In this document: in pieces, positions 5,549 to 32,263 of the stretch | Layout: every line of letters starts with the position of its first letter | Position numbering within the stretch: position 1 is the first letter of the stretch | Virus record (IMG/VR): IMGVR_UViG_3300046003_005642 | Coordinates: 1 to 37,710 of that record | Reading direction: 5' to 3' (one strand) | DNA from: a virus | Length of the DNA stretch: 37,710 bases | The notes under the pieces: model-generated | Seen by the model: the letters and a program-made list of their open reading frames with translations, nothing else | Databases searched by the model: none | What the model was told of the DNA's origin: nothing | Translations under genes and position numbers: made by a program

Positions 5549-6466
5549 TTATTCTTTTAATTGTTTTAAAAATTCATCAACAACACCTTGGAATTGAGAT
5601 GGAACATCAATTCTCAAAGCTACTGCTTCTTGGATACGTTTTTGTCTATCTGCTTCAAATTCTTGTAAAGCTTTTCTATAATCTGCAGCCCAAGATTGAT
5701 ATTCTTTATTCCAAGTTTCATTAATATTATTATTAATCTCATTTACACGAGCTTGTTCTACCCCATTTTCTTTAGCAATACGTGCATTTTCTGTTGTAAC
5801 AGAATTTTTAACTTTACTTTTGAAGTAATTTACTTTTTTCTCATAATCTCTATGTAAAGCAGCTAATTCTTCATGAAGATCAACTAATTGTTCTGATGTA
5901 TGGTGAATGTCAACTTTAACAGGAGTTTTTTTACCTACTTCAACCTCGAAAAATTCCAAAGTTTTAATATTAGGTAGTTCACTTCTTAAACGATCTAATT
6001 TTCCTCCTTTATGGATATATTGTCCTATATGAGAAGCATAAGCTTCTGCTTCTAAAAACTCATTATACTCATCTAATGAAAGTTGAGACCAACCCCATTC
6101 TTCATCGATAAGAGATAATAACTTAGGAGATTCAACTTCCCCTCTTTTTGGTTGAACTACTAAATAGTTAAATTGTTCTTTTTGAATAGATTTAACTAGT
6201 TCATCTTTAGCTTTAATATTTTCCATTAAAAAAGCTTGAGCAGCATGTAGTCTGGATTTTTCTTGTAATAAAGAAACTACATTTTCAGGTAATTGAAATG
6301 ATTGTGTTTCAATATATGTTTCACCTCCAATATTAATTGTACGTGAAAAATTGTTTGTTTGCTCTAATTTAGAAGTGATTTCTTTACTTCTTTGATTACA
6401 AAGATTAGAAATTGATTGAGCAGTACTTAATGATAAACCTGTTTTTGAAAGTGAATTTCTTCTCAT
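5549..6466 (-). CDS. Unknown 305-aa largely helical protein
   Basis: A soluble protein I do not recognise. The Ser/Thr-rich N-terminus (residues 1-30) leads into a helical region. Residues about 115-160 contain a Trp/Glu patch (DEEWGWSQLS) and the C-terminal third is a long Glu/Lys/Arg-rich helix (DYRKALQEFEADRQKRIQEA). Less AT-biased in amino-acid content than its small neighbours, so probably an older phage gene. It is placed directly downstream of the tRNA array and before the small hydrophobic peptide. Confidence 0.75.
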   Translation of the reverse strand: MRRNSLSKTGLSLSTAQSISNLCNQRSKEITSKLEQTNNFSRTINIGGETYIETQSFQLPENVVSLLQEKSRLHAAQAFLMENIKAKDELVKSIQKEQFNYLVVQPKRGEVESPKLLSLIDEEWGWSQLSLDEYNEFLEAEAYASHIGQYIHKGGKLDRLRSELPNIKTLEFFEVEVGKKTPVKVDIHHTSEQLVDLHEELAALHRDYEKKVNYFKSKVKNSVTTENARIAKENGVEQARVNEINNNINETWNKEYQSWAADYRKALQEFEADRQKRIQEAVALRIDVPSQFQGVVDEFLKQLKE

Positions 6467-6503
6467 GATCTTAATTTAATTAATTTGAATATTATTTTAA
6501 TTG

Positions 6504-6577
6504 TGGCCTAGACAGGACTCGAACCTGTGACCTTCGCGTTATGAGCGCGCCGCTCTAACCAACTGAGCTACAAGGCC
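6504..6577 (-). tRNA. tRNA with CAT anticodon (elongator Met or Ile2)
   Basis: Complete cloverleaf. Acceptor GGCCTTG, D-arm with GTTGGT, anticodon loop CTCATAA, T-loop TTCGAGT, discriminator A. The body resembles bacterial elongator tRNA-Met. With a second CAT tRNA at 9762, one is probably Met and the other the lysidine-modified Ile2 species that reads AUA. Confidence 0.92.
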
Positions 6578-6582
6578 AAAAT

Positions 6583-6646
6583 AATAACCACTCCAAGTGT
6601 TAGTAAACCCTATGAAAGAAAAAACTTGTGGTTAGGAGTGGTTATT
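6583..6646 (-). repeat. 64-nt spacer hairpin between tRNAs
   Basis: A perfect 12-bp inverted repeat (AATAACCACTCC / GGAGTGGTTATT) exactly fills the gap between two tRNAs. Likely a processing signal or stabilising element in the tRNA precursor. Similar end-closed hairpins occur at other spacers in the array. Confidence 0.7.
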
Positions 6647-6650
6647 TTAG

Positions 6651-6720
6651 TAGCGGTCGTAGGAGTTGAACCTAACTTCTGGGTTATGAGCCCGGTGTGC
6701 TACCATTACACTACCCCGCG
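6651..6720 (-). tRNA. Initiator tRNA-fMet (CAT), atypical acceptor base
   Basis: Hallmarks of an initiator: 5' CGCGGGGT with unpaired C1 (opposite T72), three G-C pairs in the anticodon stem (GGG CTCATAA CCC) and T-loop TTCAACT. Oddly, the acceptor positions 6-67 and 7-66 and the outer T-stem pair are mismatched, so it may be decaying or structurally unusual. Confidence 0.8.
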
Positions 6721-6734
6721 ATATATTTAATTTG

Positions 6735-6831
6735 CTGATCAATAACGATTCGAACGTTAATCCTGTTTTCCTGTTCAACCCTTTTATTAATGATTTACTA
6801 AGTTCTACCGTGCACCTTTACACCATAATCA
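6735..6831 (-). ncRNA. tRNA-like RNA without a recognisable anticodon arm (97 nt)
   Basis: Acceptor TGATTAT pairs with TTGATCA (six of seven) and ends in G. The D-arm is GTG TAAAGGTG CAC, and the T-arm is a perfect TAACG TTCGAAT CGTTA. The 5' T1-A72 pair, G73 and the D-arm are tRNA-Gln-like. The centre is about 24 nt too long and no 7-nt anticodon loop with U33 on a 5-bp stem can be drawn. Either a degenerate tRNA with an insertion or a deliberate tRNA mimic. Confidence 0.55.
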
Positions 6832-6881
6832 ATCGGTACCTTGCAAAGTACCAGGTTTAAGTTAATTACTCTTAAACTTCG
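6832..6881 (-). repeat. Spacer with two hairpins
   Basis: The minus strand carries GTTTAAG/CTTAAAC and GGTAC/GTACC inverted repeats. The second encloses TTTGCAAG. No coding potential seen. Confidence 0.5.
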
Positions 6882-6957
6882 CGGTCCTAGAGGGTTTCGA
6901 ACCCTCATTTTAGAGCGGTGACAACGCAATTCATCAACCTACGATGCTTATAGGACC
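6882..6957 (-). tRNA. tRNA-Asp (GTC)
   Basis: Perfect acceptor GGTCCTA/TAGGACC with discriminator G, D-stem CATC/GATG, T-arm GAGGG TTCGAAA CCCTC and anticodon loop TTGTCAC. The outer two pairs of the anticodon stem are mismatched. Confidence 0.85.
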
Positions 6958-7033
6958 AAAATACTTGTCTATTCCAAATTGTCAAACCTGTCAAAGTCGG
7001 TTAAGCTATTATCAACCTCTTAACAGATGATTG

Positions 7034-7107
7034 TGGAGCCGAAGGGAATCGAACCCTCATACCTTCTACTTGCAAAGCAGCTATTCAACCAATTGAACTA
7101 CGACCCC
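7034..7107 (-). tRNA. tRNA-Ala (TGC)
   Basis: Acceptor GGGGTCG/CGGCTCC with one G-T, including the G3-T70 pair that identifies tRNA-Ala. Anticodon loop TTTGCAA, T-loop TTCGATT, discriminator A. Confidence 0.95.
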
Positions 7108-7113
7108 AATTTG

Positions 7114-7185
7114 TATCGCGTACGGGGATCGAACCCGTGCCTTATCATAGAAAGTGATACGTGTTAACCTCTTCACTAACGCGAC
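7114..7185 (-). tRNA. tRNA-Glu (TTC)
   Basis: Acceptor GTCGCGT/ACGCGAT, anticodon stem TATCA/TGATA with loop CTTTCTA (T at position 37 is unusual), T-arm CGGG TTCGATC CCCG. Confidence 0.92.
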
Positions 7186-7209
7186 AAATTATTTTAAATT
7201 TCTTATATT

Positions 7210-7222
7210 GTAAATATATGAA
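7210..7222 (-). promoter_or_regulatory. Promoter-like box within the tRNA array
   Basis: Minus strand TTCATATATTTAC, one base from the window consensus, upstream of tRNA-Glu. Probably transcribes the left part of the array. Confidence 0.65.
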
Positions 7223-7249
7223 CTTAATTTTTAAAATCCAAATATTTTA

Positions 7250-7300
7250 GAAAGACTAGTTTAGACGAGTGTATATCTTTCTTTAACTCTAGTTCCTTTC
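7250..7300 (-). repeat. Spacer hairpin between tRNA-Gly and the array promoter
   Basis: ACTAG/CTAGT extended by GAAAG/CTTTC closes a roughly 50-nt loop directly upstream of the promoter box. Confidence 0.5.
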
Positions 7301-7315
7301 GGATAAATATTTTTG

Positions 7316-7391
7316 AGCGGAATGTGGGATTCGAACCCACGGTGATTCTACATTGGAAGTGTAGCGCAATCGACCACTATGCGAATTCCGC
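7316..7391 (-). tRNA. tRNA-Gly (TCC)
   Basis: Perfect acceptor GCGGAAT/ATTCCGC with discriminator T, anticodon stem CTACA/TGTAG, loop CTTCCAA, T-arm GTGGG TTCGAAT CCCAC. Confidence 0.95.
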
Positions 7392-7398
7392 AATTCTG

Positions 7399-7473
7399 TA
7401 CTCTAGGTGGGATTCGAACCCACAAAAATCTTGTGTCTAAAACAAGCGCGTCTTCCATTTCCGCCACATGAGC
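7399..7473 (-). tRNA. tRNA-Leu (TAG) with unusually short variable region
   Basis: Anticodon stem CTTGT/ACAAG with loop TTTAGAC, D-arm of Leu type (GGCGGAAATGGAAGACGC), T-arm GTGGG TTCGAAT CCCAC. The variable region is only about six bases (ATTTTT) instead of the long arm normal for Leu. Acceptor pairs 5-68 and 6-67 are mismatched. Confidence 0.85.
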
Positions 7474-7480
7474 AAATTTG

Positions 7481-7560
7481 TGCCCCAAGAAGGACTCGAA
7501 CCTTCAAGCCGAAGCGGCATCGTTTAAGGATGATGTGTTTACCAATTTCACCATTGGGGC
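7481..7560 (-). tRNA. tRNA-Leu (TAA)
   Basis: Acceptor GCCCCAA/TTGGGGC, anticodon loop CTTAAAC, long variable arm CCGCTTCGGC as expected for tRNA-Leu, T-loop TTCGAGT, discriminator A. Confidence 0.93.
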
Positions 7561-7564
7561 GTTT

Positions 7565-7627
7565 AAGAAGAGTATGACGTTTACTCGTTTATAATCTTTC
7601 GATCGCAACTTATGGTTCTCTCTTCTT
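7565..7627 (-). repeat. 63-nt spacer hairpin between tRNA-Leu and tRNA-Cys
   Basis: AAGAAGAG and CTCTTCTT form an 8-bp perfect end stem enclosing the whole spacer. Confidence 0.55.
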
Positions 7628-7630
7628 CGA

Positions 7631-7702
7631 AGTCAAGGTAGGATTTAAACCTACGAACATTCCGGTTGCAACGGACTCCCTTGGATCACTCGGGCACTTG
7701 AC
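7631..7702 (-). tRNA. tRNA-Cys (GCA)
   Basis: Acceptor GTCAAG/CTTGAC with discriminator T (the Cys identity base), anticodon loop TTGCAAC on TCCG/CGGA, T-arm GTAGG TTTAAAT CCTAC. Confidence 0.9.
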
Positions 7703-7712
7703 CATTTTTCTT

Positions 7713-7820
7713 TTAATACCAAAATTCTTTTGGCATTTCAATTTTTCTAAGAATTTCTTCTTTCTTTTTAAACATACGAAAAGAAATTTTAGAAAACAAG
7801 TTTTTTAATAATTTTTTCAT
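7713..7820 (-). CDS. 35-aa basic peptide inside the tRNA array
   Basis: A 36-codon ATG frame begins MKKLLKNLFSK and ends MPKEFWY. It is Lys/Arg-rich and amphipathic. It lies about 105 bases downstream of the promoter at 7926-7938. Longer than most chance frames here and starts cleanly, but no homologue is known to me. Confidence 0.55.
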   Translation of the reverse strand: MKKLLKNLFSKISFRMFKKKEEILRKIEMPKEFWY

Positions 7821-7925
7821 ATTGTTTCTTTTTATAAAATTAAATAATATGGTTTATTGAATCCATATCTTGTCTTTAAAGGACACGCTTTAAACTCTTA
7901 AGCTAATTATTTAAATTTCTATATT

Positions 7926-7938
7926 GTAAATATACGAT
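7926..7938 (-). promoter_or_regulatory. Bacteroidota-type promoter (35-aa peptide and tRNAs below 7.7 kb)
   Basis: Minus strand ATCGTATATTTAC with TTGGAT about 20 bp upstream, matching the bipartite consensus. Confidence 0.75.
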
Positions 7939-7963
7939 TTATAAATTTAAAATCCAATTCCTT

Positions 7964-8467
7964 TTATAAAAATAAAAATTTTTCCCATTCTTTAGGTATT
8001 TCATCCAATCCTCTCATTAGCATAAGATAATGAGGTCGTTTTGGTTCTGGAATGTCTTTTCCCCATTCTTGTAATGTTAAATCTGCTTTTTCACCATTAC
8101 ATGATCTACAAGCAGTAACTACATTTTCAAAAGTATTTTGTCCTCCTTTTGATGTTGGATGAACATGATCCAATGTTAATGTTTTTCTATTTGAACACCC
8201 ACAATAAACACATTCATAATTATCCCTTTTAAACACATTTTCTCTACTAAATGGAACTTTATGAAACTTTTGATTTACATATTTATGAACTTTAATAATA
8301 GATGGTTTTTTTATATCCAAATTTGGATTTACTAAACCAAAACTTTCATTATGTTCATATATAATTTCCGCATTTCCTTTATATGAGATTACAAAAGCAC
8401 GTTCGGAATTTATAATACTCCGTGGCATATAACTTGAATCTATTACTAATGTTTTTTTCTGTGTCAT
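7964..8467 (-). CDS. HNH endonuclease
   Basis: A 167-aa protein. Residues 83-130 form an HNH nuclease with zinc knuckles: CVYC (86-89), the LTLDHVHP catalytic strand with His101, Asn111 and the CRSCNGEKAD knuckle (C120/C123). The N-terminal 75 residues match the IIN..RA...Y.G.AE arrangement seen before this HNH type in bacteria and phages. Free-standing HNH enzymes often act as homing nucleases in phage tRNA clusters, which would explain its place inside the array; a packaging or defence role is an alternative. It overlaps the preceding small gene by four bases (ATGA). Confidence 0.9.
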   Translation of the reverse strand: MTQKKTLVIDSSYMPRSIINSERAFVISYKGNAEIIYEHNESFGLVNPNLDIKKPSIIKVHKYVNQKFHKVPFSRENVFKRDNYECVYCGCSNRKTLTLDHVHPTSKGGQNTFENVVTACRSCNGEKADLTLQEWGKDIPEPKRPHYLMLMRGLDEIPKEWEKFLFL

Positions 8468-8631
8468 AACTTATATTGTGTTTTTCTATTGTGTTTCCAA
8501 GTTTTATATATTCTTTGTTCAAAAGATTGTAATCTTCCTTTTAATTTTAATCCTTCATCCCAATATGGGGGATATTTATAAAATACTATTTCTCTTTTAT
8601 ACTCTTTTTGGGTATAATTTTTAATTCTCAT
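8464..8631 (-). CDS. Unknown 55-aa basic protein
   Basis: A 56-codon frame beginning MRIKNYTQKEYKR whose TGA overlaps the ATG of the HNH gene. Rich in Lys, Arg and Tyr with the motif YPPYWDEG. The overlap argues for coupled translation with the nuclease. No function assigned. Confidence 0.65.
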   Translation of the reverse strand: MRIKNYTQKEYKREIVFYKYPPYWDEGLKLKGRLQSFEQRIYKTWKHNRKTQYKL

Positions 8632-8656
8632 TTTTTCTCATTTTAGGTTATTAAAC

Positions 8657-8908
8657 CTAATGAGCATCAAATTCTATTTTCATAATTAATTTTATTAAAT
8701 ATTTTAAATCTTCAATTGAATTAATAGTATTATTAAATTTTAAAAATCTATTTTGATTTTGAATTAATTCGATTGTTAACCAATTTTCTACAGACCAATT
8801 ATTATGTAAAAAATGAATTTTAAATTCATTAAAAATATAAATTCCTGAATTATAATGTAATTCTTTAAAATTATTTTTTATTAATAATTCTCTAATATCT
8901 AGTCTCAT
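8657..8908 (-). CDS. Unknown 83-aa protein
   Basis: Asn/Ile-rich with alternating strands (FNEFKIHFLHNNWSVENWLTIEL) and a helical C-terminus (IEDLKYLIKLIMKIEF). Not recognised. It overlaps the 3' end of a headless reading frame (8892-9043). Confidence 0.6.
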   Translation of the reverse strand: MRLDIRELLIKNNFKELHYNSGIYIFNEFKIHFLHNNWSVENWLTIELIQNQNRFLKFNNTINSIEDLKYLIKLIMKIEFDAH

Positions 8909-9043
8909 AACTTTTTTTTATGATTTTTTAAAATCTTAATTTCTTCCGGAGAAACTGTTAAGGGATAACCTAACGGAATTTGATCCTTAACCTGTTCTCC
9001 TTCTTCTGCGCGCCTGGTAGGGGTCGAACCTACTCGTCATACG
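8892..9043 (-). pseudogene. Headless reading frame fused to the end of tRNA-Trp
   Basis: An open frame ending in TAG at 8892 encodes a coding-like peptide (QIPLGYPLTVSPEEIKIL, then NHKKSYETRY) but has no ATG, GTG or TTG start before the in-frame stop inside tRNA-Trp. Either the 3' end of a gene whose 5' part was displaced by the tRNA, or a gene started at a rare codon such as ATT. Confidence 0.4.
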
Positions 9044-9079
9044 TTTTGGAGACGTACCGGCTACCTCAGCCTCAGACGC
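9009..9079 (-). tRNA. tRNA-Trp (CCA)
   Basis: Perfect acceptor GCGTCTG/CAGGCGC with discriminator G, anticodon stem TACGT/ACGTA, loop CTCCAAA, T-arm GTAGG TTCGACC CCTAC. Confidence 0.95.
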
Positions 9080-9091
9080 ATTTTTATTTTG

Positions 9092-9163
9092 AACCCCTAA
9101 CTGGATTCGAACCAGTATCAAAACGGTAGAAACGTCTTATTTTTCCAATTAAACTATAAGGGC
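9092..9163 (-). tRNA. tRNA-Arg (TCT)
   Basis: Acceptor GCCCTTA/TAGGGGT with two wobble pairs, anticodon stem AGACG/CGTTT, loop TTTCTAC, T-arm ACTGG TTCGAAT CCAGT. Reads AGA/AGG, the preferred Arg codons of this AT-rich genome. Confidence 0.93.
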
Positions 9164-9337
9164 AAGTTTCGGATTTCGTTCCGAATTGACGTTAAAATAA
9201 TAAACCTTGTTTATTAATTTAAAGCCTAAAATTAGGCTGCAAATGCAAAGTTGTCCTTTACTTTAATATCAATCTCTTTTTATCTACTTTTTCTATTGTC
9301 AAAACCGGTCTACCCCTTATTTTATTAAGAGATTTCG
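9164..9337 (-). other. Spacer without gene, with two small hairpins
   Basis: The roughly 174-base gap holds TCGGA/TCCGA next to tRNA-Arg and an AGCCTA/TAGGCT hairpin at 9223-9238 followed by TTAAATT, a weak terminator-like element. No open frame seen. GGGGTAG at 9311-9317 (minus strand) could pair with the 3' acceptor strand of the neighbouring tRNA fragment. Confidence 0.4.
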
Positions 9338-9401
9338 TGGAGTAGGAGAGATTCGAACTCTCGTCCAATAAAATGTCTATAAACGTCAACAATTAATATA
9401 G
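9338..9401 (-). pseudogene. tRNA fragment: T-arm and 3' acceptor only
   Basis: A perfect T-arm GAGAG TTCGAAT CTCTC is followed by CTACTCCA, but no GGAGTAG 5' acceptor strand, D-arm or anticodon arm fits between it and tRNA-Arg(ACG), which ends at its border. Probably a remnant left by recombination within the array. Confidence 0.55.
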
Positions 9402-9473
9402 AGGTCTTAAAAGGGATCGAACCTTTATTCTATCGTTCGTAGCGATAAGTTTTTCCAATTAAACTATAAGACC
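9402..9473 (-). tRNA. tRNA-Arg (ACG)
   Basis: Perfect acceptor GGTCTTA/TAAGACC with discriminator T, anticodon stem TATCG/CGATA, loop CTACGAA, T-arm AAAGG TTCGATC CCTTT. A34 is normally deaminated to inosine to read CGU, CGC and CGA. Confidence 0.94.
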
Positions 9474-9489
9474 ATAAAATAGAGGAAAT

Positions 9490-9555
9490 ATCGTTTAACC
9501 TCTGGAGTTGCGCATTCTCCTTCATATAAGTCCTTACGTGCAACTTATAAACGAT
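9490..9555 (-). repeat. 66-nt spacer hairpin between tRNA-Arg and tRNA-His
   Basis: ATCGTTTA/TAAACGAT closes the spacer, with an inner AGTTGC/GCAACT stem. Confidence 0.65.
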
Positions 9556-9562
9556 TTTTTTG

Positions 9563-9651
9563 GGTGTACGACGGGGATTGAACCCGCATGTTTAATTAAA
9601 AACTCTTGTTTCACAGACAAGCTTGGCAAACCAATATCCAACTCGTACACC
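9563..9651 (-). tRNA. tRNA-His (GTG) with an extra-long variable arm
   Basis: Eight-pair acceptor including the His-specific G-1 opposite C73, anticodon stem CTTGT/ACAAG, loop CTGTGAA, T-loop TTCAATC. The variable region is about 17 nt and can fold as GTTT TTAATT AAAC, whereas tRNA-His normally has a short variable loop. Confidence 0.93.
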
Positions 9652-9656
9652 ATATA

Positions 9657-9757
9657 AATTAATAATAGGACTCGAACCTATAATAAGTTTATTTCATCCT
9701 TATCCTGTTTCTACTTCATTGAGTAGTGTAGATGTTTACCACTTCCATCATATTAAT
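9657..9757 (-). ncRNA. tRNA-like RNA without normal anticodon arm (101 nt)
   Basis: Perfect 7-bp acceptor ATTAATA/TATTAAT, D-arm ATG..GTGG..CAT and perfect T-arm ATAGG TTCGAGT CCTAT. The centre is 50 nt rather than about 22. It forms two hairpins, CTACT CAATGA AGTAG (6-nt loop) and ATAAG..CTTAT (10-nt loop), neither giving a canonical 7-nt anticodon loop with U33. It shares ACAGGA-type sequence with the tRNA-like element at 6735. Confidence 0.6.
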
Positions 9758-9761
9758 TTTG

Positions 9762-9833
9762 TAGTGATAGAGAATTTCGAAATCTCGACCTGAATCATAT
9801 GAAGATTCTGCTCTTCCTCTGAGCTATATCACT
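9762..9833 (-). tRNA. tRNA with CAT anticodon (second elongator Met or Ile2)
   Basis: Perfect acceptor AGTGATA/TATCACT, anticodon stem GAATC/GATTC with loop TTCATAT, D-arm GCTCAGAGGAAGAGC. The T-stem has an unusual T-T at the normally invariant 53-61 pair. Probably the Ile2 (AUA-reading) tRNA if the 6504 copy is Met. Confidence 0.88.
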
Positions 9834-9968
9834 AGTTTTGATAAGAACCCATTAACTTATCGTTGTACTATAGATTTTTTGATCAAGTGTCCTACCACTA
9901 GGGCCCCGTTCGTACTTTCATCTCCTGTGTTCCTTAAACACGTTGTGAGGACGGTGAATAGGTTTTTG
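9834..9968 (-). pseudogene. Spacer with 5' half of a degenerate tRNA
   Basis: The minus strand contains GGGGCCCTAGTGGTAGGACAC (positions 9888-9908), a tRNA 5' acceptor and D-arm of Glu type, but the anticodon arm is scrambled and no matching 3' acceptor follows. A GATAAG/CTTATC hairpin lies at its far end. Read as a decayed tRNA gene. Confidence 0.45.
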
Positions 9969-10053
9969 CGGAGAATATAGGATTCGAACCTATGCCGCGA
10001 ATTAACGCGGATTGCTTAGCAGGCAATTCCAATAACCACTCTGGCAATCCTCC
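9969..10053 (-). tRNA. tRNA-Ser (GCT)
   Basis: Acceptor GGAGGAT/ATTCTCC with discriminator G, anticodon stem ATTGC/GCAAT, loop CTGCTAA, long variable arm CCGCG..CGCGG, T-loop TTCGAAT. Confidence 0.95.
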
Positions 10054-10060
10054 AAATTTG

Positions 10061-10134
10061 TACCCATATTAGGATTTGAACCTAAGACAATCGAAGTATC
10101 AGTTCGGTGCTCTACCAGGCTGAGCTATATGGGC
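10061..10134 (-). tRNA. tRNA-Ile (GAT)
   Basis: Acceptor GCCCATA/TATGGGT, D-arm GCTCAGCCTGGTAGAGC, anticodon loop CTGATAC, T-arm TTAGG TTCAAAT CCTAA, discriminator A. Confidence 0.94.
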
Positions 10135-10139
10135 AATTA

Positions 10140-10226
10140 ATTACTAAAGGTGGGAGTCCTCCACCGAATATTTTATTACGGTCGTCATTTCCTGACACCA
10201 GGTCACTTTTTATTTATTTTAGTAAT
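10140..10226 (-). repeat. 87-nt spacer hairpin between tRNA-Ile and tRNA-Asn
   Basis: ATTACTAAA/TTTAGTAAT (9 bp) closes the spacer, with an inner GGTGG/CCACC hairpin. Confidence 0.6.
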
Positions 10227-10230
10227 TTGC

Positions 10231-10300
10231 TGCCCCCTAGAGACTCGAACTCTAATAAATTGATTAACAGTCAACCGTAATAACCTTTATACGAGAGGGC
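10231..10300 (-). tRNA. tRNA-Asn (GTT)
   Basis: Acceptor GCCCTCT/AGGGGGC, anticodon stem TTGA/TCAA with loop CTGTTAA, T-arm AGAG TTCGAGT CTCT. Confidence 0.9.
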
Positions 10301-10308
10301 AATTATTG

Positions 10309-10382
10309 TGGACCTGGTCCGATTTGAACGGACGACCATCTCATCTTCAGTGAGGCACTCTACCAGGCTGAGTTACAGGTCC
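10309..10382 (-). tRNA. tRNA-Phe (GAA)
   Basis: Perfect acceptor GGACCTG/CAGGTCC, D-arm CTCAGCCTGGTAGAG, anticodon loop CTGAAGA, T-arm GTCCG TTCAAAT CGGAC, discriminator A. Confidence 0.95.
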
Positions 10383-10441
10383 AATTTTAGGTTTTTAATT
10401 CATTGAGGTGAACCTAATAACACCCACATCAAAGTTATTAG

Positions 10442-10675
10442 TTATTGGTGGTGTTTTATATAACGACCAAATCTATCTACTCTTAAATTCATACGAGTAA
10501 GAGATAAATTCCAATTACTAAAGTTAGACAATCTTGTTTTTGCTTGAGCAAGTTTTAAAGCACTTGCTTCTGCTTTTGAACGATCCATTTCTGTAGTTTC
10601 TACAAAAAATGTGGGAGCAACAGTACCAATCTGATTGGTAGGACAAACTCTCCAAATTCTAATTTGTGTTTCCAT
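10442..10675 (-). CDS. Unknown 77-aa protein
   Basis: The ATG at 10675 (METQIRIWRV) is preferred over an in-frame TTG at 10699, because the latter has no ribosome-binding context. Visible features are an N-terminal strand with VCPTNQIGTVAP, a helical centre (RSKAEASALKLAQAK) and a basic C-terminus. Possibly nucleic-acid binding, but no family recognised. It lies in a break in the tRNA array. Confidence 0.7.
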   Translation of the reverse strand: METQIRIWRVCPTNQIGTVAPTFFVETTEMDRSKAEASALKLAQAKTRLSNFSNWNLSLTRMNLRVDRFGRYIKHHQ

Positions 10676-10689
10676 AATTTTAGCTAATG

Positions 10690-10722
10690 CTAAAACCAAG
10701 GAGGAAATTCAATTGTCTTCAT
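10690..10722 (-). CDS. Possible 10-aa leader peptide
   Basis: An ATG at 10722, ten bases after the stop of the 90-aa gene, gives MKTIEFPPWF and then TAG, ending 14 bases before the 77-aa gene's start. A Pro-Pro-Trp run before a stop is a typical ribosome-stalling context, so it could regulate the next gene; it may also be chance. Confidence 0.3.
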   Translation of the reverse strand: MKTIEFPPWF

Positions 10723-10732
10723 AATATTAATT

Positions 10733-11005
10733 TTATTTTCTTGTGTAAGGTTTAACCTCTTCATTTGTGTATCCAAACCAATGTTTTGGTTCTTCATCAC
10801 CCCAATAAGGTCGTGATTCTTGGAAAATAATTTGATAATCTGAATAATCCCAATCATTTACTATTGATTTAGGATGACGAAGATAAATCTCCTCTCCTCT
10901 CCATCCTTTAATAGTTTGAGACCATTCTCTTCTAATTATTTTCCAATATTCATCTTTTCTAAAACCATGATCTTTATAAATTGGTTTTTTTCTACTTCTT
11001 GACAT
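10733..11005 (-). CDS. Unknown 90-aa basic protein (MSRSRKKP type)
   Basis: Begins MSRSRKKPIYKDHGFRKDEY and is rich in Arg, Trp and Tyr (RREWSQTIKGWRGEE). The basic head and conserved-looking aromatic pattern resemble small phage proteins seen near tRNA clusters in Bacteroidota phages. It could bind RNA or ribosomes, but this is inference. Confidence 0.75.
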   Translation of the reverse strand: MSRSRKKPIYKDHGFRKDEYWKIIRREWSQTIKGWRGEEIYLRHPKSIVNDWDYSDYQIIFQESRPYWGDEEPKHWFGYTNEEVKPYTRK

Positions 11006-11071
11006 TTTTTCTAAGTTACTTATTAGTACTTAGAACACTGAATTTTTCATAGTTAATAAAGTTTATTTTTG

Positions 11072-11153
11072 TGGGAGATAGAGGACTCGAACCTCTCTCA
11101 TAATGAATTCGATTTACAGTCGAACTGCCATATCCGAATGACTTTTATCTCCC
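11072..11153 (-). tRNA. tRNA-Tyr (GTA)
   Basis: Perfect acceptor GGGAGAT/ATCTCCC, anticodon stem TTCGA/TCGAA with loop CTGTAAA, class II variable arm, T-loop TTCGAGT, discriminator A. Confidence 0.95.
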
Positions 11154-11158
11154 TTTTG

Positions 11159-11229
11159 TACCTCGAGAAGGTTACGATCCTTCGCCCAATCCATGTAAAA
11201 GATTTACGCTTCCATTACGCCATCGAGGT
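11159..11229 (-). tRNA. tRNA-Val (TAC), T-loop with swapped 54-58 pair
   Basis: Perfect acceptor ACCTCGA/TCGAGGT, anticodon stem AATCT/GGATT with loop TTTACAT, T-stem GAAGG/CCTTC. The T-loop is ATCGTAA: A54 and T58 replace the near-universal T54 and A58. Confidence 0.9.
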
Positions 11230-11323
11230 AAATTATAAGTTTATTTTTAAAGAATAACTTATTAAGAAACTTACTAGGGTATTTTAAGTACTATTTAGGT
11301 CCCTCTAGTTCTACCTTATTTCG
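11230..11323 (-). repeat. Spacer hairpin between tRNA-Val and tRNA-Lys
   Basis: ACTAGGG pairs with CCCTCTAGT (two extra bases), and an AT-rich ATAAGTT/AACTTAT hairpin sits next to tRNA-Val. No gene seen. Confidence 0.45.
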
Positions 11324-11396
11324 TGCTCCCGGTTGGCCTCGAACCAACTACCCCCGAGTTAAAAGCCCGGTGCCCGTCCACATGAGCTTCGAAAGC
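11324..11396 (-). tRNA. tRNA-Lys (TTT)
   Basis: Acceptor GCTTTCG/CGGGAGC with two G-T pairs, anticodon stem CCGGG/CTCGG, loop CTTTTAA, T-arm GTTGG TTCGAGG CCAAC, discriminator A. Confidence 0.94.
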
Positions 11397-11400
11397 AAAT

Positions 11401-11435
11401 CTAATTCTATGATTCTCTAGTATACTATGAATTAG
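11401..11435 (-). repeat. 35-nt spacer hairpin between tRNA-Lys and tRNA-Pro
   Basis: CTAATTC/GAATTAG 7-bp inverted repeat. Confidence 0.5.
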
Positions 11436-11451
11436 TAACAGTCTCAAGCTG

Positions 11452-11527
11452 TCGGGTGTGCAGAATTCGAATCTGCGTGCTCTTACGTCCAAGGTAAGCG
11501 AGATAAACCTGACTCCTCTAACACCCG
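11452..11527 (-). tRNA. tRNA-Pro (TGG)
   Basis: Perfect acceptor CGGGTGT/ACACCCG with the C1-G72 pair typical of tRNA-Pro, anticodon stem CTTAC/GTAAG, loop CTTGGAC, T-arm GCAGA TTCGAAT TCTGC. Its first ten bases are also the last codons and stop of the upstream HNH gene. Confidence 0.95.
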
Positions 11528-11979
11528 TTTAAATATTTTTCTAAATTTATATTATTTTCCTTTTCTAAATAGTGAAAATCCCTATGACAATTTGAACATA
11601 ATAAAATACATTTATCAACTTCCTCTTTTGCTTTTTTTATGGATTTTTCACTATATCCATAATAAACTAAAATATTAGAGATTATTTCTTCTTTTAATGT
11701 TGGATTTTTATGATGGAAATCTAATAAATGTTTTCTGTTTTCCCCACATTTTTCACATTTTCCTCCTAAATAATCTCTAAAATCAAAAATTATTTCTTTA
11801 ATTTTTTCATTTCTTTTAGAATTCCCCTTTTTCCATATACTAGGATTTTCATTAAACCATTTTTTATCTGCTATTTTTTTACATGGTTTACAATATCTAG
11901 TATAACCATCTTTGGTTGTTTTATTTTTCGTAAATTCATATAAATTTTTCTCTATTTTACATTTAGAACAAATCTTCAT
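11518..11979 (-). CDS. HNH endonuclease with N-terminal zinc finger
   Basis: A 153-aa nuclease. The N-terminus has paired cysteines CSKC (4-7) and CKPC (30-33) for DNA binding. The HNH domain has CEKC (75-78), the LLDFHHKNP catalytic segment (His89/90) and LCSNCHRDFH (128-136). It is of the type found as free-standing homing endonucleases in phages. The stop codon lies inside tRNA-Pro, so the two genes share ten bases, which suggests insertion exactly at the tRNA 5' end. AT-rich with a simple-codon composition. Confidence 0.92.
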   Translation of the reverse strand: MKICSKCKIEKNLYEFTKNKTTKDGYTRYCKPCKKIADKKWFNENPSIWKKGNSKRNEKIKEIIFDFRDYLGGKCEKCGENRKHLLDFHHKNPTLKEEIISNILVYYGYSEKSIKKAKEEVDKCILLCSNCHRDFHYLEKENNINLEKYLNGC

Positions 11980-12003
11980 AATACTATATTTATTATAAAT
12001 ATT

Positions 12004-12033
12004 AGGTCTTTTTTAAAGACTCGAACTTTATTT
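12004..12033 (-). pseudogene. Orphan T-arm and hairpin after tRNA-Gln
   Basis: TAAAG TTCGAGT CTTTA is a perfect tRNA T-arm, followed by a GTCTTT/AAAGAC overlapping hairpin. No acceptor, D-arm or anticodon arm belongs to it. It may be a tRNA remnant reused as a processing or termination hairpin. Confidence 0.45.
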
Positions 12034-12034
12034 G

Positions 12035-12105
12035 TTACCCGTGGAGGTAACGATCCTCCTCCGCTTGTGTCAAAGACAAGTGTACCACCTTTATACGAAC
12101 GGGCA
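12035..12105 (-). tRNA. tRNA-Gln (TTG), T-loop with swapped 54-58 pair
   Basis: Acceptor TGCCCGT/ACGGGTA with the weak T1-A72 pair typical of tRNA-Gln, anticodon stem CTTGT/ACAAG, loop CTTTGAC, T-stem GGAGG/CCTCC. The T-loop is ATCGTTA, with A54 and T58 as in the Val tRNA of this array. Confidence 0.92.
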
Positions 12106-12112
12106 AATTTTG

Positions 12113-12202
12113 CGGAGAGAGTGGGACTTGAACCCACACACCCTTTAAATGATTGGCTGTTTTCAAGACAGCTGCCGCTAGACCAACTCGGCTTACCTCT
12201 CC
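12113..12202 (-). tRNA. tRNA-Ser (TGA)
   Basis: Acceptor GGAGAGG/TCTCTCC with discriminator G, anticodon stem GCTGT/ACAGC, loop CTTGAAA, long variable arm, T-arm GTGGG TTCAAGT CCCAC. Confidence 0.95.
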
Positions 12203-12245
12203 AATAATATCCAAAATGTCAAAGATCAAATTTTAATCTTATGTC

Positions 12246-12258
12246 GTAAATATACGAT
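12246..12258 (-). promoter_or_regulatory. Bacteroidota-type promoter (tRNA-Ser and downstream array)
   Basis: Minus strand ATCGTATATTTAC, with TTGGAT about 20 bp upstream, 44 bases before tRNA-Ser(TGA). Confidence 0.75.
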
Positions 12259-12314
12259 TTATAATTTTAAAATCCAAATTTATTTTTAAGAAAATTTGAA
12301 AAAACTTAATTTTG

Positions 12315-12388
12315 AGCTCTATTCCGGGATCGAACCGAATCTATTCCTCATTACAAGTGAGGTGCACCACCTTTTATGCGTATAGAGC
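12315..12388 (-). tRNA. tRNA-Thr (TGT)
   Basis: Perfect acceptor GCTCTAT/ATAGAGC with discriminator T, anticodon stem CCTCA/TGAGG, loop CTTGTAA, T-loop TTCGATC. Rightmost tRNA of the array. Confidence 0.95.
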
Positions 12389-13906: not shown

Positions 13907-14275
13907 CTAATAAATTTCATATATTACGTTTTGATTAATAAAATATTTTTCAATAAATTTTTCCAAAATTTCTTTTCCTGCTCTAATATTACCATAATAT
14001 TGTTGTCTAAAATACCATGGAACAGAACCAAATGTTGAATCTCCACAAGTTCCAAATAGAGAATAACGATTAGTTTCTTTACCTTCTACTACTACAACAT
14101 TTTTAGTTCTTCCTATAGTCCATTTATAACCATTATAGTTAAAATCTAAATCTTTGGATATAGGTTGTCCTTGTTCGTTAAATAAATGTTTTATTTGGGA
14201 AAACTGTTCTTCATTTAATTTTAAGGTAACTGATTTCTTACTACCCCATGTAGTATATTTTATTTCTGGTATCAT
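13907..14275 (-). CDS. Unknown 122-aa protein with C-terminal YEIY
   Basis: Beta-rich N-terminus (KSVTLKLNEEQFSQIKHLF) and a Gly/Tyr-rich middle (FGTCGDSTFGSVPWYFRQQYYG). Ends NQNVIYEIY, one of eight small proteins here sharing this last tetrapeptide. The next gene's ATG lies two bases after the stop. Function unknown. Confidence 0.7.
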   Translation of the reverse strand: MIPEIKYTTWGSKKSVTLKLNEEQFSQIKHLFNEQGQPISKDLDFNYNGYKWTIGRTKNVVVVEGKETNRYSLFGTCGDSTFGSVPWYFRQQYYGNIRAGKEILEKFIEKYFINQNVIYEIY

Positions 14276-15106: not shown

Positions 15107-15261
15107 TTACTGTAGTTTGGGATAAATATAGTACAAATAATTATTATTGTAAAAAGTATAACAAATATATATCTAAAAATGGAAAAAAAGTACCCTCCTC
15201 CCATTTGATTAGATATATCTTCAGCATTTAACCAACTTATAAATTTTCTAATATATTTCAT
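15103..15261 (-). CDS. 52-aa single-pass membrane protein
   Basis: The ATG at 15261 (MKYIRKFISW) is preferred to a longer in-frame TTG start at 15285. This ATG lies inside the YEIY codons of the upstream gene. One membrane segment (about residues 24-46, FFSIFRYIFVILFTIIIICTI) follows a short basic N-terminus and a Gly-Gly-Gly turn. Confidence 0.65.
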   Translation of the reverse strand: MKYIRKFISWLNAEDISNQMGGGYFFSIFRYIFVILFTIIIICTIFIPNYSK

Positions 15262-15727
15262 AATGAAATTCTTTACTTCCCTCAATTAAATTTTTAAATT
15301 CTTCATATGTCATAGGATTAGTTACTTGTTGTTTACTACTAGTAACCCATTTTCCCTGTTTATTAAAACGAAAATTATTTGTAAATTGATTAGCCCAACT
15401 TCCTCCATATCTAGTAGAATTATTTTCATATTTAGAAAATGATTGATAACCATTTTCCATTAATAAGGTATAAATCTTCTCTCTTTCTTCTACTGTTGCT
15501 GTAAGATGAGTTACACCATCCCCTTCTTTAAATTTATATTTTGGTTGGGAAGGAGACTCATCTAAATCTTCATATTTAGATCCTATATAATCGGATTCTA
15601 CATAATATCCCTTTTGGGAAGGAAAATCATATATATCATTTTTAATATGTATTCCTATTTCCCCTTTTTTAACATAACCACTATTTGGTTTATCTACTAA
15701 TGCTTTTATTCTTTTTGGCCATTTCAT
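15248..15727 (-). CDS. Unknown 159-aa protein with C-terminal YEIY
   Basis: Starts MKWPKRIKALVDKPNSG, an opening common to small phage proteins that begin by describing a beta-barrel-like domain. It has a SYKF/KEGDG turn in the middle and a C-terminal MTYEEFKNLIE helix familiar from Bacteroidota phage proteins, then KEFHYEIY. The last 14 bases overlap the start of the next gene. Function unknown. Confidence 0.7.
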   Translation of the reverse strand: MKWPKRIKALVDKPNSGYVKKGEIGIHIKNDIYDFPSQKGYYVESDYIGSKYEDLDESPSQPKYKFKEGDGVTHLTATVEEREKIYTLLMENGYQSFSKYENNSTRYGGSWANQFTNNFRFNKQGKWVTSSKQQVTNPMTYEEFKNLIEGSKEFHYEIY

Positions 15728-15744
15728 AACTATAAAACTTTTAA

Positions 15745-16017
15745 TTAATATATTTCGTAATTTTGTTTATTGGTAAAAGGTACATATGATTTATTTCTAA
15801 TACATTCATTAAACCATTGTATTTCATCAAATGTAGCTAATCTAATTATATGCCCTATATTATTTTGATAATTATCTTCAAATTTAAAATTTTCCTGATC
15901 TATCCATAAACAGTGATTTCCTCTAATCCAACCCTCATTCCATTCCTTAACTTCTGTTATATAGTGATTTCCAAAATCCCAACCATGGTATATTATATCT
16001 CCTTTTTTAAATTTCAT
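15745..16017 (-). CDS. Unknown 90-aa protein with RLAT motif and C-terminal YEIY
   Basis: N-terminal KFKKGDIIYHGWDFG beta region, then HIIRLATFDEIQWFNECI, matching the IxRLATxxExxWxxxCI pattern in the 97-aa protein at 18457, so these are paralogues. Ends NKQNYEIY, with the first Tyr encoded by TAC rather than TAT. A gene of this type is probably a small DNA- or RNA-associated phage protein, but the role is not known. Confidence 0.75.
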   Translation of the reverse strand: MKFKKGDIIYHGWDFGNHYITEVKEWNEGWIRGNHCLWIDQENFKFEDNYQNNIGHIIRLATFDEIQWFNECIRNKSYVPFTNKQNYEIY

Positions 16018-16853: not shown

Positions 16854-17185
16854 AATACAATAATTAATATTTGGTGTAAAAGTTGATTTAAACCTAAAAA
16901 GTTTAGGAATTTTGATGTTTCTTTTTTATTATATAATTCTAATCCACTCATTATATTACCAAAAATATAATCGATTAAAAAATGAGATATAAATAATATT
17001 ATAAAAATTTTAATATTAAAAATACTAAATATAAACATTATTAAACTATATTTTAAAGAATGGATTATAAGATAATAATTATATTTACTTTTTAAAATAC
17101 TTTCATTTCTAGTTTGAAATATGAAATCAGCTAAATAATGTCCTATAAATAGTAATATTAAATATATAATATCAATATACTTCAT
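16829..17185 (-). CDS. DUF3307-like membrane protein
   Basis: A 118-aa, very hydrophobic protein with about four membrane segments. The conserved positions of the DUF3307 family are present: GHYLADFIFQ near residue 15, SHFLIDYI near 67 and LNQLLHQI near 100, with histidines and aspartates inside helices. Function of the family is not established. The ATG at 17185 lies within the last codons (YEVY) of the upstream gene. Confidence 0.8.
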   Translation of the reverse strand: MKYIDIIYLILLFIGHYLADFIFQTRNESILKSKYNYYLIIHSLKYSLIMFIFSIFNIKIFIILFISHFLIDYIFGNIMSGLELYNKKETSKFLNFLGLNQLLHQILIIVLWKIQNVI

Positions 17186-17459
17186 ATTTTATTTCTGTTA
17201 GTGATAATTTACACTCAACTGCTTCAAGAAAATCTGAAATTTTCATTCCTGAAATAAATCCTTCAATTTTGTTTTGTCCATAGAATCCACTTATTTTAAA
17301 TGCTGATTCTGCTTTCCCTTTAGATGCATATGTTAATATTCTTTTTTTATCCTTTAAATCATCAACTAATTCTAGACTTCTATCTCTTGGTACTCCTTTG
17401 GCTATTAGTTTTCTATCCTTAGACATAATAACCCAAACATTTTCATTTTTAATAATCAT
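17172..17459 (-). CDS. Unknown 95-aa protein with C-terminal YEVY
   Basis: Reads as a compact alpha-beta domain (NVWVIMSKDRKLIAKG, ELVDDLKDKKRILTYASKGKAE) and ends LTEIKYEVY, a conservative variant of the YEIY tail. The tail overlaps the start of the DUF3307-like gene. Confidence 0.7.
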   Translation of the reverse strand: MIIKNENVWVIMSKDRKLIAKGVPRDRSLELVDDLKDKKRILTYASKGKAESAFKISGFYGQNKIEGFISGMKISDFLEAVECKLSLTEIKYEVY

Positions 17460-17467
17460 AAAATAAT

Positions 17468-18022
17468 TTATTTTATATAAGTTGTTTTAGCTGCTTCTCT
17501 TATTGTTGGTTTATGACCTAATCTCTTTTCTGTATTTCGGAAAGAAGACTCCCATAATTTATCTGAAATATATTTTGTGAAACTACCTACACTAGCATGA
17601 GCTAAATGTAATACTCCTTTAAATCCAACTTTATAATAAGTAAAACCTGATTGTTTAACACATAAATTTAACATTGGATATGGAGATTGTCTTGTAAGTA
17701 CATGGGAATCAGGTCCAAAATATTGAACCCAAGAAATATCATCTCCAATTTTTAGTCTAAGGCCTTTATATAAATCATCAATATTTTCTAAATACATTCC
17801 ATTATCTAAAGCCCATTCTTTAACTGAATGAATATCCCCCTTTGGAAATATAATAGATAATAAATAAGTTTCTTGATCCCATTCTAATTTTGTAGGATTT
17901 ATTTGGAATATCCAACCTATTTTTTCATGATTTCTAGCTAATGTAGTTGCAAAAGTACATCCTATTTTACCAGAACGAATCCATTTAATAGTTTGGTCAT
18001 AAACTTCACTAGTAAATTTCAT
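17468..18022 (-). CDS. Unknown 184-aa protein
   Basis: Begins MKFTSEVYDQTIKWIRSGK. A soluble, Trp/Tyr-rich protein with a segment WALDNGMYLENIDDLYKGLRL, then GFTYYKVGFKGVLHLAHASVG and a basic helical C-terminus (NTEKRLGHKPTIREAAK). The start ATG lies within the YEIY tail of the upstream gene. No family recognised. Confidence 0.7.
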   Translation of the reverse strand: MKFTSEVYDQTIKWIRSGKIGCTFATTLARNHEKIGWIFQINPTKLEWDQETYLLSIIFPKGDIHSVKEWALDNGMYLENIDDLYKGLRLKIGDDISWVQYFGPDSHVLTRQSPYPMLNLCVKQSGFTYYKVGFKGVLHLAHASVGSFTKYISDKLWESSFRNTEKRLGHKPTIREAAKTTYIK

Positions 18023-18242
18023 ATGAAATATTATCTGGATTAAATCCTTTAGGCATTAATTCAAAATCAGGATTTTTATGTACATCTTTACCCCAATAAT
18101 TAGATCGTTTCCCTGTTTCTCCCCAACATTCAGCTCTACTTCCGAAATAACCTCTAAACAACATATAATCCCCTTTTATACAAGGATAATGTTGTTTATT
18201 TCTATCATTTAATACTTTTAAATATCTTCCTGTTAAATCCAT
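18009..18242 (-). CDS. Unknown 77-aa protein with C-terminal YEIY
   Basis: Begins MDLTGRYLKVLNDRNKQHYP and carries DFELMPKGFNPDN, an ending recurrent in small Bacteroidota-phage proteins, then ISYEIY. Beta-rich (CIKGDYMLFRGYFG). Function unknown; the SH3-like shape is only a guess. Confidence 0.7.
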   Translation of the reverse strand: MDLTGRYLKVLNDRNKQHYPCIKGDYMLFRGYFGSRAECWGETGKRSNYWGKDVHKNPDFELMPKGFNPDNISYEIY

Positions 18243-18245
18243 AAC

Positions 18246-18470
18246 TTAATAAATTTCGTAATGATTATTATTTCGATTTTTTAAATAATCCCCACAATAT
18301 TTTGTTCTTAACATATCATTGACATTATAAGTATTATAACCTGTATATTTTTTTGAAGGATTACTTTCACAGTAAAATTGAAGAGTATCCTCTCCAGTAT
18401 ATTCAATTATATATTCGATTCCACTTTGGACTAAAATTTGTCCGTCTAATTGTTCTTTAGTATATCTCAT
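18246..18470 (-). CDS. Unknown 74-aa protein with C-terminal YEIY
   Basis: The ATG at 18470 (MRYTKEQLDGQIL) is chosen over a TTG-initiated longer frame because it lies in the YEIY junction of the upstream gene, exactly like its neighbours. Beta-rich, Tyr/Asn-rich, ending NNNHYEIY with the first Tyr as TAC. Confidence 0.7.
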   Translation of the reverse strand: MRYTKEQLDGQILVQSGIEYIIEYTGEDTLQFYCESNPSKKYTGYNTYNVNDMLRTKYCGDYLKNRNNNHYEIY

Positions 18471-18750
18471 AACTATATTTTCCTTCAAAAAGTTGTTTCA
18501 CAATTTCTTCTTTAATAAATTTACCTTGTTCAATACAAGTATCTAACCAAAATTTTTCAAATGGAGTAGCTAATCTTAATAACTTTCTTCCATATATTCC
18601 TGATGTATTATCTGTTCCACAGTAATCACCACCATAATTTATTCTAATAAAATGTAAAGTTCTTTCTTTATTCTTCATTAAATTAATAAAAATTGATGAC
18701 TCATTTTCTTCGTAAATATAATCTCCTTCTTTAATTTCTGATTTATTCAT
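18457..18750 (-). CDS. Unknown 97-aa protein with RLAT motif and C-terminal YEIY
   Basis: N-terminus EIKEGDYIYEENESSIFINLM, then LLRLATPFEKFWLDTCIEQGKF, paralogous to the protein at 15745. Ends GKYSYEIY using GAG, ATA and TAC codons, all different from other copies. The stop overlaps the next gene's start. First gene after the promoter at 18769. Confidence 0.75.
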   Translation of the reverse strand: MNKSEIKEGDYIYEENESSIFINLMKNKERTLHFIRINYGGDYCGTDNTSGIYGRKLLRLATPFEKFWLDTCIEQGKFIKEEIVKQLFEGKYSYEIY

Positions 18751-31449: not shown

Positions 31450-31680
31450 CTAATAGATTTCATAATTATTGTTTGGATTTAAATAATTTTCTAAATCTTG
31501 TTTAAATATTTCAACATATCCTCCTCTAAACTCTGTTGGATCTTTTCTTCCCCTTCCACCATTAGAATAATATCCTCCAATAGTATAATTATAATTTTTT
31601 CCAAAAGATAATTCTGTTTGTTGAAGTATAGGTTTAACTTCTTTGGTAACTTTTATATACCAATATTTAGGTAATTCCAT
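31450..31680 (-). CDS. Unknown 76-aa protein with C-terminal YEIY
   Basis: The start ATG at 31680 (MELPKYWYIKVTKE) is favoured over an ATG four codons earlier because PKYWYIKV is the usual opening of this small-protein type in Bacteroidota phages. Gly-rich centre (GGYYSNGGRGRKDP) and end NNNYEIY, with the Ile as ATC. The only YEIY protein outside the 13.9-18.8 kb cluster. Confidence 0.7.
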   Translation of the reverse strand: MELPKYWYIKVTKEVKPILQQTELSFGKNYNYTIGGYYSNGGRGRKDPTEFRGGYVEIFKQDLENYLNPNNNYEIY

Positions 31681-31681
31681 A

Positions 31682-32263
31682 TTAAAATTCATCAGGGTGT
31701 CTATAACTTAATCTAAGTGTATCTTTTATTGTATTAAATGTACTAGCCGTTACATGATTAAATGTTGATTCTCCAACTCTTCTAAATGCAACCATTTGGT
31801 TACCATTTTCTTCATCTATATAATGAACAATCCCACCTTCATAAGCATATGGTGGGTATTTATCACCTTTTTTCCATCTAGGACCTGAATAACATTTGTG
31901 AAAACTCCAATGTTCATCATCTTCATCCCAAACTCTATCTTCAAAATGATTTGGTTGAAGATATTTATGTTTATTTAAATACGGTAATATAAAACCAAAC
32001 ACTTCTCTAATTGAAATTTGAATTGATGCACGAGATGATAACCAATTAGAAGCCCCTAATTTTTGAGATTCAGGTTTATTAACACCAGGTAGTAATTCAA
32101 AACTACATCCCCCAGATACTTCAACGTAATCATGAGTTACTTTGATACGTTCTTCTGTTGGATTTCCATTCCACTCTTGAGTAGGAGGTACAGTTAGGAC
32201 GAATAAATCATTCCCATTATCATCTTTTCCTAAATATTTAGATATTTTTAAACTTTGTGACAT
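31682..32263 (-). CDS. Unknown 193-aa protein
   Basis: Begins MSQSLKISKYLGKDDNGNDL. Trp/Tyr-rich with TVPPTQEWNGNPTEERIKVT and SGGCSFELLPGVNKPES; residues about 105-150 are acidic-aromatic (HFEDRVWDEDDEHWSFHKC) followed by KKGDKYPPYAYEGGIV. Seems a single large folded domain, maybe nucleic-acid or sugar binding, but no motif is diagnostic. Confidence 0.7.
   Translation of the reverse strand: MSQSLKISKYLGKDDNGNDLFVLTVPPTQEWNGNPTEERIKVTHDYVEVSGGCSFELLPGVNKPESQKLGASNWLSSRASIQISIREVFGFILPYLNKHKYLQPNHFEDRVWDEDDEHWSFHKCYSGPRWKKGDKYPPYAYEGGIVHYIDEENGNQMVAFRRVGESTFNHVTASTFNTIKDTLRLSYRHPDEF

Follow-up and report, generated by a model that had tools for sequence, protein, structure and literature searches.

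The IMG/VR virus record IMGVR_UViG_3300046003_005642, a 37,710-base virus fragment referred to here as the window, carries a cluster of transfer RNA (tRNA) genes that together serve all 20 amino acids. The cluster is likely to be a translation locus with a full tRNA set, a two-piece transfer-messenger RNA (tmRNA) and working tRNAs in which the elbow has been rewired. The set, its order, the tmRNA, the paired changes in the elbow and the retained discriminator bases could be read directly from the sequence.

Content and codon coverage of the tRNA array

The window is AT-rich and carries almost every gene on the minus strand. ARAGORN identified 24 minus-strand tRNAs from 6503 to 12388, and Rfam RF00005 contributed a CAT tRNA at 6652-6719 (37.2 bits, cut-off 29), which brings the cluster to 25 tRNAs serving 20 amino acids. 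The main features are the following:

6503..12388, minus strand: tRNA array, 25 tRNAs serving 20 amino acids, with two HNH genes and small open reading frames in between (ARAGORN, Rfam, order kept in relatives)
6503..6577, minus strand: CAT tRNA, Ile2 or Met, identity putative (ARAGORN)
6652..6720, minus strand: initiator tRNA-fMet(CAT), missed by ARAGORN (RF00005 37.2 bits, initiator features, relatives)
9761..9833, minus strand: CAT tRNA, Met or Ile2, identity putative (ARAGORN)

The anticodons of the array are Thr TGT, Ser TGA, Gln TTG, Pro TGG, Lys TTT, Val TAC, Tyr GTA, Phe GAA, Asn GTT, Ile GAT, Ser GCT, three CAT, His GTG, Arg ACG, Arg TCT, Trp CCA, Cys GCA, Leu TAA, Leu TAG, Gly TCC, Glu TTC, Ala TGC and Asp GTC. 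The CCA end is not encoded in the tRNAs of the window. Initiator features, namely an unpaired 1:72 position and a GGG:CCC anticodon stem, were observed in the CAT tRNA at 6652-6720 and are shared by its positional counterparts in the arrays of relatives. For the remaining two CAT tRNAs, exclusion, not proof, would then give Met and Ile2. This agrees with a preliminary description of the window, which had listed fMet and two further CAT tRNAs within a set for all 20 amino acids and most four-codon boxes served by single U34 tRNAs.

Relatives of the array were found through the gene for a 305-residue protein that flanks it:

5549..6466, minus strand: 305-residue protein of unknown function, adjoining the array in relatives (75 IMG/VR relatives)

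Pfam and PHROG gave no match for this protein. Dozens of the 75 IMG/VR loci share this array, with the order of its tRNAs largely kept and up to 27 of them present. When 51 array loci were scanned for strict cloverleafs, 487 matches fell on the coding strand and 1 on the opposite strand, so that chance is not a question for these tRNAs. The RF00005 scores of most array tRNAs were 33-69 bits; tRNA-Tyr, at 28.9 bits, lies marginally below the cut-off, yet is 84% conserved in L001, the closest relative. The preliminary observation of a complete set is confirmed.

Codon use was compared with the set in 78 open reading frames (9,499 codons), assuming that U34 reads four-codon boxes and that ACG acts as I34. 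Only ATA (358 uses) and CGG (1 use) were left without a reader, and if one CAT tRNA is Ile2, ATA is covered and CGG remains as the sole codon without one, as had been proposed. When U34 was limited to A and G, codon coverage dropped to 83%.

The statement that few phages carry a complete set was too strong, since T5 has one and dozens of the IMG/VR relatives share the array. The likeness to T5 (AY543070) is one of content: the tRNAs annotated in T5 serve 20 amino acids, fMet, Met and Ile2 being among them, and are interspersed with HNH homing endonuclease genes and with tRNA-like stable RNAs of unknown function. In contrast to the window, every T-loop that the strict scan recovered from T5 was canonical T54/A58, and the annotation of the part of T5 that was read lists no tmRNA. 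Pectobacterium phage Wc4 and Cellulophaga phage phi4:1 have about 20 tRNAs each, and Sf14 has 26 that serve 19 amino acids (PMC12482277). The suggested role of the set, in resisting tRNA depletion or anticodon nucleases, fits published work on phage tRNAs (PMC10264068, PMC11555353); the window sequence is neutral on this point. The tmRNA, the elbow variants and the structured RNAs between the tRNAs were absent from the preliminary description.

A two-piece tmRNA within the array

Between the Arg(ACG) and Arg(TCT) tRNAs a further RNA gene was identified:

9232..9384, minus strand: two-piece (circularly permuted) tmRNA, tag VKDNFAFAA-stop (RF04321 53.7 bits, cut-off 47)

The 3' acceptor piece lies upstream of the 5' piece, the 7-bp acceptor is paired and the tag frame ends with Ala-Ala. 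An ARAGORN tmRNA* call at 8896-9427 was dropped as it overlaps three real tRNAs, and the RF04321 match was preferred. That the match is a chance or decayed sequence could be argued from its score, only 6.7 bits over the cut-off, and from its recovery in a single relative, but the homologue in L001 occupies the same place with 61.8 bits. The two acceptors differ in two pairs, both compensatory (CTACTCC/GGGGTAG in the window, CAGCTCC/GGGGCTG in L001), and the tags, VKDNFAFAA-stop and VKDNFAIAA-stop, stand in the same frame, which makes a spurious match very unlikely. RF04321 scored above its cut-off in none of the 47 other records examined, and when IMG/VR was scanned for exact matches to the tag region, L001 was the only one returned.

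Two-piece tmRNAs have been reported in Alphaproteobacteria, Betaproteobacteria and Cyanobacteria (PMC11915505) and in aquatic phages (PMC9004378). The marine phage Melnitz and other aquatic phages, like the window, carry a circularly permuted tmRNA gene (PMC9004378); the Melnitz tmRNA is of the alphaproteobacterial type and lies beside protein genes, whereas that of the window lies in a tRNA array of a probable Bacteroidota phage. A permuted tmRNA is unusual in such a phage, although the tmRNA family itself is already known.

Exchanged elbow contacts in tRNAs of the window

The G18-Psi55 (Psi, pseudouridine) and U54-A58 contacts of the tRNA elbow have been called universal and serve in recognition by RNase P, RNase Z, modification enzymes and the ribosome (PMC7912444, PMC4810234). 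Three tRNAs of the window depart from the canonical contacts:

12034..12105, minus strand: tRNA-Gln(TTG), swapped T-loop ATCGTTA (A54, U58, A60; G18G19), 63.3 bits with the covariance model R1 (see below)
11158..11229, minus strand: tRNA-Val(TAC), swapped T-loop ATCGTAA (A54, U58, A60; G18G19), R1 60.6 bits
7629..7703, minus strand: tRNA-Cys(GCA), T-loop TTTAAAT (U56), D-loop G18A19 (read from the sequence; 84% identical in L001)

The usual loop is TTCRANN. In the Gln and Val tRNAs the canonical T54-A58 reverse-Hoogsteen pair is exchanged for A54/U58, accompanied by A60. Both keep G18-U55 and G19-C56 (D-loop GG, U55, C56), and both pass RF00005 with 44.3 and 50.5 bits, respectively. The Cys tRNA has A19-U56 in place of G19-C56. 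This A19-U56 variant (G18A19 with U56) was also observed in L149, L190 and L193 and in phage T-loops TTTGAAT. The T-loop of the eukaryotic initiator tRNA (A54-A58; PMC7912444) resembles the swapped loops in that A54 replaces U54. It differs in that position 58 remains A, whereas the variant has U58 and, in a second form, also an A-G contact at 18-55.

Paired changes among relatives

The cloverleaf scan of the 51 array loci imposed no rule on the sequence of the T-loop. Among its 309 unique cloverleafs, 267 had T54/A58 and 35 had A54/U58. Of the latter 33 were convincing, and position 55 followed position 18 throughout, U55 occurring with G18G19 (19/19) and G55 with A18G19 (14/14). In a wider set of loci 601 unique cloverleafs were obtained (508 T54/A58, 61 A54/U58), in which position 60 was a pyrimidine in 495 of the 508 canonical loops and A in 56 of the 61 swapped ones. 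The swapped loops comprised 35 with G55 and 26 with U55; of the former, one counted as GG reads AGG and is thus A18G19, and another is a false match. Among genuine cases, U55 was invariably accompanied by G18 and G55 by A18. The association between positions 18 and 55 gave a Fisher p of 2e-16, a value too strong as a probability because the tRNAs are related and the counts are not independent events, so that the number of anticodons matters more. The A54/U58 type is spread over 13 anticodons, G55 with A18 was found in 9, and both forms in 8.

Only four positions, 2/71 and 18/55, separate the Phe tRNA of L051 from that of L107, and both changes are paired. The discriminators of variant tRNAs are the bases of the canonical isoacceptors, including G in Asp and Trp, U in Thr and Gly and C in His. 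As a rule, the nearest match of a swapped tRNA is a canonical or other-subtype tRNA with the same anticodon, which indicates that the elbow change arose more than once.

When 14 A18-G55 tRNAs for 8 amino acids were aligned, A18, G19, U33, G52, G53, A54, G55, C56, U58, A60, C61 and C62 were invariant. The covariance model R1 was built from this alignment. It gave most variant tRNAs 50-79 bits and canonical tRNAs of control phages at most 41 bits, but scores of about 50 bits were also reached by a few tRNAs, canonical or other, from a huge phage and some cellular genomes, which makes a direct reading of the T-loop necessary. Six control phages (T5, phi4:1, Lak-B1, Vibrio D419, Gundel and MT835539) contained 66 canonical and no A54/U58 tRNAs. 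Many variant-elbow tRNAs were missed by ARAGORN, and phage tRNAs are undercounted by standard tRNA finders.

Variant elbows in other phages and in cells

The Lys form was found on 39 IMG/VR contigs by a pattern scan, and none of the 25 contigs tested among these had the 305-residue neighbour. In Pseudomonas phage 16Q (OR001909) both tRNA-Ile and tRNA-Pro have the A18-G55 and A54-U58 elbow (R1 74.1 and 72.4 bits, respectively). This is a different phage with a different host from that of the window, and its record deposits plain tRNAs with the elbow unremarked. The U55 form occurs in tRNA-Phe of Boevelstad and in tRNA-Asp of the huge phage LR756502. A third pair, G54-G58, was also observed and obeys the same 18-55 rule. 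Two phages with an A18-G55 tRNA-Lys encode, close to their tRNAs, a CCA-adding-type enzyme (PolyA_pol and HD domains; L109, a virus contig of 168,763 bases) and an RNA ligase (PF09414; L106), respectively.

An alternative elbow confined to phages was rejected once R1 matched it in cellular genomes. In a set of 145 genomes of 0.4-2 Mb, from the phylum of a metagenome-assembled genome and taken from their size to be candidate-phyla bacteria, two contained a tRNA-Cys in which A18-G55 is combined with A54-U58, and in two others or the same a tRNA-His combines A18-G55 with G54-G58. In one genome, a single contig of 909,550 bases with 35 tRNAs found, the variant tRNA-Cys (CCA encoded) was the only Cys tRNA found, and the same held for the second (G115 and G185), although an intron-bearing Cys tRNA may have been missed in both. 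This sole-Cys status is the best evidence that the variant tRNAs very probably work in translation. A second copy of the 3' half of the variant tRNA-Cys, possibly an integration scar, lies about 60 bases downstream of the whole copy (G115:C1:413786-413826). The variant tRNA-Lys pattern had no match in 192 cellular genomes of one phylum, and the Lys query none in plasmids. No description of the elbow turned up in the open-licence papers searched on phage tRNA T-loops, A54/U58 and candidate-phyla tRNAs.

The variant tRNAs might instead be pseudogenes or decoys outside translation, and it is true that ARAGORN overlooks many of them. Their stems, however, are perfect or nearly so, their changes are paired, their discriminators fit the isoacceptor and in two cellular genomes such a tRNA is the only one found for Cys, so that this explanation is given very little weight. 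Function in translation is strongly suggested by these features. The existence of natural tRNAs with matched pairs substituted at both contacts suggests that a rewired elbow is compatible with a working tRNA. Such tRNAs offer minimal pairs for direct tests and form a natural test of the tolerance of the tRNA fold.

Possible causes of the elbow change

The variant elbows may have arisen by near-neutral compensatory drift, in which, under weak constraint, a change at 58 or 55 was followed by repair of the partner, the array serving codon supply only. The variants are scattered, canonical and swapped tRNAs share an array position in close relatives (Lys, window versus L001), tRNA turnover between the window and L001 is fast (58-100% identity), and variant elbows are present in small cellular genomes. 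Drift would not readily lead to the same end state (A54, U58, A60 and GG/CC closing pairs) in 13 anticodons, nor does it sit well with its absence from the 66 tRNAs in the arrays of the control phages. Its probability is put at a little below one half.

Alternatively, the elbow could evade a host factor that reads the canonical form, such as a tRNA-cleaving or tRNA-modifying defence protein. This idea is attractive as the elbow is a surface read by many enzymes (PMC4810234), on which the change recurs. Phage tRNAs evade anticodon nucleases through loop changes (PMC10264068), and Lys(UUU), the classical anticodon-nuclease target, was swapped most often in the unbiased set (10/21). The tRNA-targeting defences in the literature examined, however, cut the anticodon loop or the CCA tail, and none depending on elbow loop sequences turned up there. 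Cas12a3 contacts only the backbone of the T-arm and still cuts loop-less tRNAs (PMC12851939), and the idea is weakened further by the occurrence of this elbow in cells. Escape is thus considered unlikely. The broader proposal that phages and some small-genome bacteria use a second elbow (A18-G55, A54-U58 or G54-G58, A60), kept in phages since it is invisible to elbow-reading host enzymes or defences, is similarly doubtful. Elbow variants are nevertheless a new place to seek tRNA-based counter-defence.

Probable host and proposed function of the locus

The host is probably a member of the Bacteroidota. Shine-Dalgarno-like sites were found at just 2 of 26 starts, which was counted in favour of such a host, and Flavobacterium phage immuto is 78% identical to the flank of L051.

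The proposed reading is that the locus serves translation in a large tailed phage. Its transcripts would contain the tRNAs for all 20 amino acids and the two-piece tmRNA, which host tRNA-processing enzymes would cut out and to which the host would add CCA. With this set, almost all codons in use by the phage would remain readable after loss or modification of host tRNAs. A number of the tRNAs, in the window Gln and Val, would be working translation tRNAs with A-U for T-A at 54-58 together with A60, and in relatives the 18-55 contact has also shifted from G-U to A-G.

Several points weigh against this reading, in addition to the inflated Fisher value. The window has the U55/G18 form only and the A18-G55 form comes from relatives, and the tmRNA is known from one relative only. 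The host is inferred, not shown, and in immuto only 4 tRNAs are annotated in the part that was read, and the 305-residue neighbour is absent. Expression, charging, function in translation and a benefit against tRNA loss are inferred, and the patchy distribution of the variants also fits slow compensatory drift.

Turnover of the array and other RNAs and small proteins

When the window and L001 were compared tRNA by tRNA, identity was a mosaic ranging from 58% (Val) to 100% (Asp). Two endonuclease genes lie within the array:

7964..8467, minus strand: HNH endonuclease (PF01844, PF14279)
11518..11979, minus strand: second HNH-type endonuclease (phrog_2255, E 4.8e-32)

The protein encoded at 7964-8467 is the same in L001 at 167 of 167 residues, while neighbouring proteins are mostly 58-81% identical. 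Together with the tRNA mosaic this suggests that pieces of the array move or are replaced singly. The tRNAs downstream of this HNH gene are mostly 79-100% identical to those of L001, and others as low as 58%.

A conserved RNA was observed between the Ser(GCT) tRNA and a CAT tRNA:

9834..9967, minus strand: conserved structured RNA (present in 21 related loci)

It has 18 pairs, 5 of them changed on both sides, and Rfam returned nothing at E<=1; the stable RNAs of T5 are the nearest precedent in kind. Spacers of tRNA size closed by long helices were also found at 6578-6651, 7561-7628, 9474-9561 and 10135-10228, some common to L001 or L021 only, and are possibly small RNAs or tRNA relics.

Eight small proteins with mostly unrelated bodies share the C-terminal sequence YEIY (YEVY in one). 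Their open reading frames are:

13907-14275, minus strand: YEIY/YEVY open reading frame
15248-15727, minus strand: YEIY/YEVY open reading frame
15745-16017, minus strand: YEIY/YEVY open reading frame
17172-17459, minus strand: YEIY/YEVY open reading frame
18009-18242, minus strand: YEIY/YEVY open reading frame
18246-18470, minus strand: YEIY/YEVY open reading frame
18457-18750, minus strand: YEIY/YEVY open reading frame
31450-31692, minus strand: YEIY/YEVY open reading frame

Open reading frames of this type were found five times in L001 and twice in L021, and in none of the loci outside these two records and the window. Codon changes in the motif are synonymous, and the YEIY peptide itself therefore seems to be selected.

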